This document shows, one piece after another, positions 60,689 to 64,000 of a stretch of 64,000 bases of DNA. A program made the translations under genes and the position numbers. The stretch covers positions 7,233,001-7,297,000 of the forward strand of contig NZ_CP050063.1 in the NCBI RefSeq assembly GCF_011604685.1. Direction: 5' to 3'. This stretch comes from Spirosoma aureum (GTDB lineage: Bacteria; Bacteroidota; Bacteroidia; Cytophagales; Spirosomataceae). How positions within the stretch are numbered: the first letter of the stretch is position 1; each line of letters begins with the position of its first letter. A model generated the notes under the pieces. That model ran no database searches. It had not been told where the DNA came from and worked only from the letters and a program-made list of their open reading frames with translations.

Positions 60689-61351
60689 ATGTGGCCAGTT
60701 ATTAGAAGAGCCATTGATTACTTCGACACGGTCCCTCCTTTGCTGTTACTGATCCTGGCTATAACCGTGATGGTTCGGCCAAAGAGGGACTATGTTTTTT
60801 ATTACATCTGTTGTCAGTTCATATTCAATGGCTATGCCAATCTCCTGAATGAACTTTTAAGAGATAACCTGTTTGTCTACTCACTCAATTTTACATGGTC
60901 TTATTTTATCCTTTCACTCTATTTTATTGAAGTTTATAATTCCCCTGTTTTAACCAGACTTATACTGTTTATTGTTGTATTATTCCAGGTTGATTCGCTG
61001 TTCAACATTGAGCAGGTTACTTCTGAGATGACATTCAATAGCATCTCTTTTGGGATTATTAGCCTGTTAATCACCTTTTATTGCTTACTCTACTATACCA
61101 AACAGTTATCTACACAGCCTAAAGAAAACATCTTACATGTTCGTAATTTTTGGTACGTAAACGGTATCTTTACTTACTACGCCAGTAATTTTTTTATCTT
61201 TCTGACATTCAATACGTTAGTGAACAGACATTATACCAATATCGGTATAATATGGAAAATTCATAACGTTGTTTTTCTGGTGATGTGCATTTATTTTTTC
61301 ATTGGATTACAATGCAAGCCTTCGCTGGAGAAATCGGAATCGTCATTATAG
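60689..61351 (+). CDS. Multi-pass membrane protein, probable signalling partner
   Basis: A 220-residue protein with six or seven hydrophobic helices (for example PPLLLLILAITVMV, FILSLYFIEV, LLITFYCLLYY and IWKIHNVVFLVMCIYFFIGL). It has no catalytic motif and is rich in Tyr/Phe. Its last 40 bases overlap the start of the histidine kinase gene, so the two are tightly coupled. It may supply a membrane-sensor module missing from the kinase; that is inference. No family recognised. Confidence 0.72.
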   Translation: MWPVIRRAIDYFDTVPPLLLLILAITVMVRPKRDYVFYYICCQFIFNGYANLLNELLRDNLFVYSLNFTWSYFILSLYFIEVYNSPVLTRLILFIVVLFQVDSLFNIEQVTSEMTFNSISFGIISLLITFYCLLYYTKQLSTQPKENILHVRNFWYVNGIFTYYASNFFIFLTFNTLVNRHYTNIGIIWKIHNVVFLVMCIYFFIGLQCKPSLEKSESSL

Positions 61352-62109
61352 CAACTCTTTTTTTGCTCTTAATAACGGTCGCTCCTATTTTATTCGTGCT
61401 TATGCATCAACGTCAATATCATCGCTACTTATCTGATAAAGAGGAGATTAAAAACTTAAACCAGCGCGAACTTCTTCAGTCTCAATTAGAAATCCAGAAT
61501 CAGACTTTTCAACAGATTGGCGAAGAACTTCATGATAACATAGGCCAACTGCTTACGGTAGCGCTCATGCGGCTAAATACACTCGAAGACGAGGTTATCG
61601 ACCCAGATGCTCAGCAGTCTGTACAGCAGACCCGTGAGATCATCAGAACGATCATCACTGATGTGCGGGCGCTGGCTAAAACACTTGATCACGATACGGT
61701 TCGACGATTTGGGCTATTGGCTAGTCTGACCCTTGAACTCGAACGGATTCAACGGACTGGGCGTATCCAGATACAGTTTCAGACGAGTGGTGAGACGTAT
61801 TCGCTTGGTGAACAGACCGAGACAGTGTTATTACGCATGACTCAGGAATCGTTGAACAATGCGCTCAAACATGCTCAGGCTCAGAGCATAACAGTTTCAG
61901 TCGACTATCAGCCGACCCTATTTATACTCTCAATTTCCGATGATGGTCGTGGATTTGAATTAGAGGATGTAGCTAAACGTGCCCTTGATAAAGCTGGTGT
62001 AGGATTGACCAATCTTTATCGACGGGCCGGGCTGTTAGGAGGAACCTGTAGTATCGTTAGCCACCCCGGTGCTGGTACACGCGTCGAAATTAAGCTACCG
62101 CGTACGTAA
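61312..62109 (+). CDS. Sensor histidine kinase, HisKA_3 / HATPase type
   Basis: A 265-residue kinase, start at 61312 (MQAFAGEIGIVIIATLFLLL), with one N-terminal membrane helix. His74 lies in the phospho-acceptor motif EELHDNIGQ, followed by dimerisation helix RLNTLEDEV. The ATPase domain shows ESLNNALKHAQA (N box), DDGRGF and GVGLTNLYRRAGLLGG. The family (NarX/DegS-like) phosphorylates a NarL-type regulator, encoded just downstream. Sensing may be supplied by the preceding membrane protein. Confidence 0.93.
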   Translation: MQAFAGEIGIVIIATLFLLLITVAPILFVLMHQRQYHRYLSDKEEIKNLNQRELLQSQLEIQNQTFQQIGEELHDNIGQLLTVALMRLNTLEDEVIDPDAQQSVQQTREIIRTIITDVRALAKTLDHDTVRRFGLLASLTLELERIQRTGRIQIQFQTSGETYSLGEQTETVLLRMTQESLNNALKHAQAQSITVSVDYQPTLFILSISDDGRGFELEDVAKRALDKAGVGLTNLYRRAGLLGGTCSIVSHPGAGTRVEIKLPRT

Positions 62110-62222
62110 ACCGTTTAAAATATAAACGGTTGTTTTTCTAAAAATACTTACATCCGGGTATTGTCTACGATGGTGTAACTACCTACTTTTCAGGGATCAA
62201 ACCACATCCAGCCATCGTACCC

Positions 62223-62870
62223 ATGCCAACTTCCATTGCTATTGCCGATGATCATCGTCTATTGGCCGAGGCCCTTTCCGACTTAATCCAGAAATATGAT
62301 AATTACGAAGTCCTCTATGTAGCCGCTAACGGTCGTGACCTGTTAAACCGACTGCACCAAGGACCTGTACCAGACATTGCACTGGTTGATTTGAATATGC
62401 CCGAAATGGATGGTTTTGAAACGGCCGTACAACTTCGTCAGCATTACCCGGCAATACGTGTGCTGGCTCTTTCAATGACTGATCGTGAAGAACATATCGT
62501 TCGCATGATTCGGAACGGCGCGCGTGGTTATCTCCTCAAAGGATGCCGACCTGCTGAGCTTCGCCAGGCTCTGGATGAGGTTATGGCTAAAGGGTTTTAT
62601 TATTCTGATTTCCTGACTTCACAACTTATTCGTAGTTTAAATACACCCGAATCGGGAAGCTCATCTTCCTATTTCAACCTTAATGGTCGTGAATATGATT
62701 TCCTGAAATTGGCGTGTAGTGAGCTCACATACAACGAAATAGCCGATCGTATGTGTGTGAGCCCACGAACTGTAGATGGCTACCGCGAGGCTGTTTTCCA
62801 AAAAATGGGGGTTCGAACCCGGGTCGGTATGGTTATAGAGGCCGTACGTAACGGGTTAATCGAGTTATAG
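62223..62870 (+). CDS. NarL/FixJ-family response regulator
   Basis: A 215-residue regulator. The REC domain has the acidic IADD pair at 7-10, phospho-acceptor Asp56 in VDLNMPEMDG and Lys105 or so in YLLKGC. The C-terminal LuxR-type HTH is about 150-210: NGREYDFLKLACSELTYNEIADRMCVSPRTVDGYREAVFQKMG. It should be phosphorylated by the adjacent kinase. Target genes are not identifiable here. Confidence 0.95.
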   Translation: MPTSIAIADDHRLLAEALSDLIQKYDNYEVLYVAANGRDLLNRLHQGPVPDIALVDLNMPEMDGFETAVQLRQHYPAIRVLALSMTDREEHIVRMIRNGARGYLLKGCRPAELRQALDEVMAKGFYYSDFLTSQLIRSLNTPESGSSSSYFNLNGREYDFLKLACSELTYNEIADRMCVSPRTVDGYREAVFQKMGVRTRVGMVIEAVRNGLIEL

Positions 62871-62928: not shown

Positions 62929-63549
62929 TCAGCGAATAGACACTTGTAGCAATTGGCGACCTAATTCATGAATTGAGGCCTCCAGCCGTTCTGCCTGCTC
63001 GACGGAAGGAAATCTCGAACCTGTCATGAATCGATTAATCGACTCCATATCAATGCCAGCATGGCCAGCAATGTGATTGGCTTTCAGCTGTTTAAATAGA
63101 TCCCAAACGGCGGTTGTGTCATACACGGGCTCGAATATAATCGACTCAAATGTCGAGCGATAGCATACGTTTTCATCGGTTGCACAGTCGATAAGAACCG
63201 TCCGCAAGGTATTTATTACATTTTCTACACTATTACCGCGAGTTGCCGCTAATAGACAGGGGGTTTCTATACGACCCCAGATGGATTTTCCTTGCTTTTC
63301 CAGAATAACATTAAACGCCTTGGTGTGACGAAGAACCGTCGTCCAATGGCTGGTGCCTCCTGACTTATGGGCTGCCCGTACGGTAGCATTAAGCGTACCG
63401 GTTGGCACTTGCTCTAAACCAGTAGCAGGAATAATAAAGCAGGTAGCATGGTTTCTGGTCGAGTGTCCCAACAGGCTATGGGTTTGATGCTTTTGGATAA
63501 CTTCCCAACCTTTTTCCTGGAGTAACCTATTAAGTGCTGAAATCTTCAT
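62929..63549 (-). CDS. HicA-HicB fusion, single-chain toxin-antitoxin candidate
   Basis: A 206-residue protein. Residues 1-62 match HicA-type mRNA interferases: KISALNRLLQEKGWEVIQKHQTHSLLGH with the catalytic His24, then VPTGTLNATVRAA, the GTL motif that closes the double-stranded RNA-binding-like fold. Residues 79-120 match the partial RNase-H fold of HicB (FNVILEKQGKSIWGRIE, TRGNSVENVINTL). Residues 150-206 are a HTH of the Bacteroidota HicB type (HIAGHAGIDMESINRF, SIHELGRQLLQV). There is no Met between the two parts from residue 1 to 167, so HicB is not separately started. Such fusion is unusual; function as a toxin has to be tested. Confidence 0.72.
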   Translation of the reverse strand: MKISALNRLLQEKGWEVIQKHQTHSLLGHSTRNHATCFIIPATGLEQVPTGTLNATVRAAHKSGGTSHWTTVLRHTKAFNVILEKQGKSIWGRIETPCLLAATRGNSVENVINTLRTVLIDCATDENVCYRSTFESIIFEPVYDTTAVWDLFKQLKANHIAGHAGIDMESINRFMTGSRFPSVEQAERLEASIHELGRQLLQVSIR

Positions 63550-64000
63550 AGGGAAAGAAGCTTGTATATAACGAGATAGACATGTAAATATAATACTGGG
63601 AAGGAGACTAAACGGGCCGTTTAATTAATTTTTTAGTATGTTTTTCTCTCTTTCATAAACAAAATAGTATCCACAAGTTATAATATTGTTTTTTTTGGTA
63701 TTTATTTAAAATAATAAAGAATCTATTTAATATATAAGTTGACATAATAAAATTTATGTAACCATATTTCAATATCATAAAAAAATAAATTGTTGATATC
63801 ATATAACAGATACATGACTTTTTGCCTATTTGTACGAAACGTTAGCTCAAAAGCCAATTGATAAGTGTCTAACCTTACTGCAAATCAATGCTTAAGACTA
63901 AGAGTGTATCGGGACTTAGTAGTTAGTAAGTGATGAAATGATACGCTAATTCCTACTACTAACTCGGTTCTGGAGGGCCAGCTTAAGGCATTGTAGCACA
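63550..64000. other. AT-rich region beyond the HicA-HicB gene
   Basis: About 450 bases. 63600-63800 is strongly AT-rich with T- and A-runs; the remainder is mixed. It should contain the promoter of the leftward fusion gene, perhaps with an operator for its HTH. No coding frame was recognised and the sequence ends without a gene. Confidence 0.4.

Follow-up and report, generated by a model that had tools for sequence, protein, structure and literature searches.

The stretch considered here, called the window, consists of 64,000 nucleotides of Spirosoma aureum (assembly GCF_011604685.1, contig NZ_CP050063.1, positions 7,233,001 to 7,297,000). Close to its right end lies a minus-strand open reading frame (ORF) that encodes, from an ATG, one 206-amino-acid chain composed of a HicA-like toxin part, a HicB-like antitoxin part and a helix-turn-helix (HTH) region. 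The gene, its parts and the conserved blocks upstream of it are as follows, in window coordinates:

62929..63549, minus strand: fused hicA-hicB-HTH gene, a single ORF of 206 amino acids
63367..63549, minus strand: HicA-like domain, residues 1-61, helix-strand-strand-strand-helix, with His24 present and the GSH motif lost
63319..63366, minus strand: linker, residues 62-77, the least conserved part, without a start codon
63118..63318, minus strand: HicB-like partial RNase H fold, residues 78-144
62932..63117, minus strand: C-terminal HTH region, residues 145-206, the most conserved part across copies, its fold poorly modelled
63570..63592, minus strand: conserved upstream block TATATTTACATGTCTATCTCGTT, the core common to the six nearest copies
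63609..63635, minus strand: second conserved upstream block, the window copy of which holds the inverted repeat TAAACGGCCCGTTTA

By profile comparison, the N-terminal part of the protein matches HicA (E-value 2e-16) and the C-terminal part matches HicB (E-value 2e-37), which bears out the fusion of both partners in one polypeptide proposed in a preliminary description of this DNA. That description had also pointed to a catalytic His24, which is present, and to the lack of an internal methionine before residue 167, and methionine indeed occurs only at residues 1, 168 and 175. A separate HicB produced from an internal start was considered and rejected, as residues 50-90 of the window gene contain no ATG, GTG or TTG codon and no start is conserved there across the 21 genomic copies; a frameshift between the two parts, which had been raised as a possible objection, or an assembly artefact is ruled out by 20 further open copies in Spirosoma. 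Proteolytic cleavage of the linker at residues 62-78, also suggested at the outset, gains no support of its own, the low mean identity of the linker (18%, against 34-48% for the domains, 21 copies) neither showing nor excluding a site.

Both the N-terminal helix-strand-strand-strand-helix fold of HicA and the partial RNase H fold of HicB in the middle are recovered by profile comparison and in the structure model, whereas the C-terminal region, which aligns to HTH-bearing HicB up to its end, falls below the Pfam cut-off for HTH and is modelled with a predicted local distance difference test score (pLDDT) of 52-67. Foldseek gave zero matches at E <= 0.001, and the structural evidence is therefore supporting and not decisive. 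In the Pfam search of the family alignment, 17 of the 24 aligned relatives match HicA_toxin (best E-value 2e-6, listing threshold 10); the window protein alone matches only HTH_31 (E-value 0.034, below the cut-off) and its HicA domain is missed, while the NCBIfam scan of this protein alone returned nothing relevant and the PDB sequence search with it only chance matches. For the group lacking the catalytic histidine (His-less), 9 of the 32 aligned members match HicA, but 10 of the 32 belonged to the His-bearing group, so that this count does not settle the His-less members.

Matches to the fused protein are found in 27 of the 36 Spirosoma genomes, and 21 of the 36 carry one uninterrupted full-length fused gene, single-copy and syntenic, without an internal stop in any of the 21 frames. 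A survey of the family (14 candidates scored per genome) and of a sample of the order (8 per genome) gave matches in 69 of 222 and 49 of 390 genomes respectively; among the candidates scored, those outside Spirosoma either contain HicB alone or show stops separating the two parts, and none is an uninterrupted full-length fused gene. All named records of the protein collection are from Spirosoma except P0046, labelled as a Pedobacter metagenome-assembled genome. Because uninterrupted matches occur only in Spirosoma and all named records but one belong to it, the fusion looks genus-specific; a wider survey had been proposed in the preliminary description, and among the candidates scored the same fusion was recovered within Spirosoma and not in other genera. 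P0046 itself may represent a transfer or a mis-binned contig. Two-gene relatives close to the fused protein occur in the Spirosomataceae (L020, L026, L068-L076), and one genome (G004) encodes a 215-amino-acid protein (L033:1258-1905) in which two tandem HicB-like domains are combined with a single C-terminal HTH region and the HicA part is absent.

The fused copies occupy two settings, the first shared by 15 and the second by 6 of the 21 contexts. In the first, Pfam identifies nearby a CpsB/CapC-type protein, a sugar-nucleotide epimerase, a UDP-glucose dehydrogenase, glycosyltransferases or a Wzi-like protein; in the second, the fused gene is divergent from the gene of a polysaccharide export protein, which is followed by those of a Wzz/GNVR-type kinase-like protein and a sugar transferase. 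In the genome of the window, the epimerase and CpsB/CapC genes lie just past the right end, the latter at window-equivalent positions 65383-66147. Two marker genes bound one cluster, and in 10 of the 21 genomes neither is more than 32 kb away from the fused gene. Using ten exopolysaccharide (EPS) query proteins at an E-value of 1e-8, we obtained matches in all 21 fused contexts, against none of 8 contexts of non-fused hicA/hicB and 1 of 20 arbitrary stretches; the non-fused contexts are the 8 of the 11 loci seen in the genus that were given wide flanks, and they are shorter (8-12 kb, against 9.8-19.5 kb). In the open-access papers searched we found no report linking a HicAB fusion to exopolysaccharide. 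On its other side, at 61285-62870 of the window, the fused gene faces convergent genes for a histidine kinase and a NarL-type response regulator, the regulator gene being the downstream neighbour in 6 of the 15 first-setting contexts.

The tripeptide motif GSH is found in all 14 two-gene HicA examined and in none of 53 fused proteins, and the catalytic histidine is present in 27 of the 53 (10 of the 21 genomic copies), the window protein included; these counts exclude exact duplicates and ten short proteins of the fused family (P0024 and P0043-P0051, below 195 amino acids, probably or possibly late start calls). According to passages quoted in PMC11594946, RNase activity depends on the equivalents of this histidine, namely His23 of E. 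coli, His24 of Sinorhizobium meliloti and His36 of pneumococcus, two of the bacterial names being our reading of abbreviations. In the 26 His-less proteins the site is occupied by Tyr (2), by Met, Ile or Leu (3), or by Cys, Gly, Asn, Ser or Val (21), the two Tyr-bearing proteins being P0002/L009 and P0003/L008, with 74% and 75% identity to the window protein. In a tree of the 53 fused proteins and nine joined two-gene rows, the first-setting genomic copies, the second-setting genomic copies and the two-gene rows are each set apart by a supported branch (99/93, 100/99 and 100/99); the tree is unrooted, and the branches separating the second group from the two-gene rows are flagged as long by the program. 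This topology is most simply read as a single fusion event, although that is not proven. The tree requires at least four changes of His state; two of them depend on a poorly supported separation of the Tyr-bearing copies, and three changes can be taken as a safe floor.

Despite these losses, comparison of the coding sequences indicates that the HicA domain is under purifying selection. In four close pairs with synonymous divergence (dS) below 1, the ratio of non-synonymous to synonymous substitutions (dN/dS) is 0.08, 0.16, 0.21 and 0.11 for HicA and spans 0.07-0.13 in HicB and 0-0.10 in the HTH region, all from small counts, and W15, P41, G51 and T52 are invariant in the 21 copies. Conservation of the HicA domain in the His-less setting reaches 64%, against 50% for HicB; in those species the domain is therefore kept for something other than this catalytic residue. 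Net charge was considered as proof of lost RNA binding and set aside as weak, since the medians (+5 for canonical HicA, +2 for the fused proteins) come from overlapping ranges.

Upstream of the fused gene, the TATATTTACATGTCTATCTCGTT block is found at one place only in each of six scanned contexts (up to 4 mismatches, first 18 bases). Bacteroidota promoters carry a -7 box, TAnnTTTG, and by comparison with it the block is probably the gene's own promoter. The near-perfect inverted repeat TAAACGGCCCGTTTA (63609-63624) is not conserved in relatives, even in one that is 98% identical; only the half TAAACGG is. A shared operator in the EPS region was dismissed, the promoter blocks of the fused gene not being found again there. 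In the six genomes of the His-less setting (L058-L063), a block TTGTTATCA...AAATATAT...TAGTAACAAG lies 130-230 bp upstream of the export gene and is conserved with some changes in the arms; its TTGTTATCA...TAGTAACAAG frame, conserved in most of the six in the export-gene promoter region, reads as the export gene's own promoter plus flank, and is therefore no more than a candidate site.

We hold it somewhat probable that the Spirosoma fused HicAB is a domesticated module that serves the EPS cluster as an HTH-type transcription factor, with a structural or sensory role for HicA. A two-gene hicA-hicB of the type still present in the Spirosomataceae would have fused to one gene in the Spirosoma lineage and been kept by vertical descent at the edge of the EPS cluster, the product controlling its own gene, the EPS genes next to it, or both. 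HicB together with the HTH would form the unit that binds DNA at the promoters concerned, and HicA, its RNase role having become superfluous, would serve as a folded partner or a sensor of some signal held against HicB, presumably inactive also in members that keep His24, such as the window protein. The preliminary description is thus partly supported, the better founded of its two alternatives being repurposing as a regulator, given Tyr at the His site in two close relatives, other residues there in 24 more proteins and GSH lost from all 53. A fuller history, which we propose more tentatively, is that of a single fusion followed by loss of the RNase motif, giving a genus-wide, vertically inherited EPS-cluster transcription factor in which selection retains the former toxin domain as a non-catalytic structural arm or sensor; the fusion would then be the step that tamed the toxin and let the catalytic residue be lost in several lineages.

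Several observations weigh against a regulator of EPS genes. Half of the fused proteins (27/53) still have His24, and the HTH is recognised only weakly and modelled poorly. The EPS query set was picked after the contexts had been viewed and, as syntenic copies represent one inherited placement each, the 21 of 21 correspond to only about two placements that are independent. No convincing second copy of the conserved upstream blocks was seen in the EPS region, where there is one extra 3-mismatch match (L046). Moreover, 15 of the 36 genomes lack an uninterrupted fused gene, though 34 have c1-type genes and all 36 have export genes; the gene is dispensable, since in two genomes (G005 and G031) the two ends of the cluster lie 14-17 kb from each other and a fused gene was not found.

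A live fused toxin-antitoxin, in which HicB autoinhibits an active HicA RNase until a trigger (phage protein, stress or linker cleavage) frees it, as in CapRel, the toxin fold of which is unrelated to HicA, is unlikely in our view, and would be possible for His-bearing members such as the window protein. The 27 proteins that keep His24 and a HicA fold that is intact and under purifying selection agree with it, as does the CapRel-like defence suggested for Class 11 in passages of Gerdes 2024 (mBio, PMC10865869), but the domain is still kept in the 26 proteins without His and in the 53 without GSH, and, in contrast to mobile toxin-antitoxin modules, the 21 genomes each carry one copy in syntenic position. 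PADLOC gave no match for the three proteins tested, which does not exclude a CapRel-like defence, and no defence genes were noticed beside the fused gene, no systematic defence scan of the flanks having been made. HicB-HTH proteins classically repress their own operon, and the conserved promoter-proximal blocks directly upstream, with no recurrence in the EPS region, would suit an autoregulator with no EPS target and only passive linkage to its neighbours; we think this quite unlikely, as a bare autoregulator without output would hardly stay under selection across a genus and the fused gene lies next to EPS genes in each of its two placements. A degenerating relic without function, to which the loss of His and GSH and the gene's absence from 15 of the 36 genomes might point, is very improbable: purifying selection largely refutes it, each domain having a dN/dS well below 1 in those close pairs whose dS could be measured, and 21 frames are intact.

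It is an open question how ordinary regulators arise from toxin-antitoxin modules. Because one genus gives a graded series (two-gene hicAB, fused with the catalytic His, fused without it), Spirosoma allows one to test in which order the events took place and what becomes of a tamed toxin domain, and provides a concrete candidate regulator for its exopolysaccharide.

Canonical type II HicAB modules consist of two separate genes with a GSH motif and a catalytic His, whereas here there is a single ORF, with GSH in 0/53 and His in 27/53 proteins, including that of the window. The Class 3 two-gene hicAB with an HTH-type HicB, as outlined in passages of Gerdes 2024, has the same domains in the same order, but in two genes with a stop between them and with GSH in 14/14 of the HicA examined. 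CapRel resembles the fusion in that toxin and antitoxin are covalently joined; in Spirosoma, by contrast, the catalytic motif of the toxin is eroded. The closest counterpart is Class 11 of Gerdes 2024 (PMC10865869), defined in the passages considered as monocistronic HicA-HicB with a C-terminal HTH or ribbon-helix-helix domain: both have a single gene, an N-terminal HicA and a middle partial RNase H fold, the Spirosoma protein having a putative DNA-binding domain at its C-terminus, and by this known architecture the window protein would belong to Class 11, its HTH being weakly matched. The Spirosoma proteins differ in lacking GSH and often His, and in their syntenic position beside EPS genes; the passages considered mention neither Spirosoma nor the catalytic His nor exopolysaccharide, and such an evolution does not appear in them. 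We regard the Spirosoma fusion as an evolutionary variant that is new, probably a domesticated module linked to EPS genes with a probable function as regulator: as it often lacks the active residue of the toxin and adjoins sugar-coat genes, it resembles a disused toxin retained for gene regulation, not an active killing switch.
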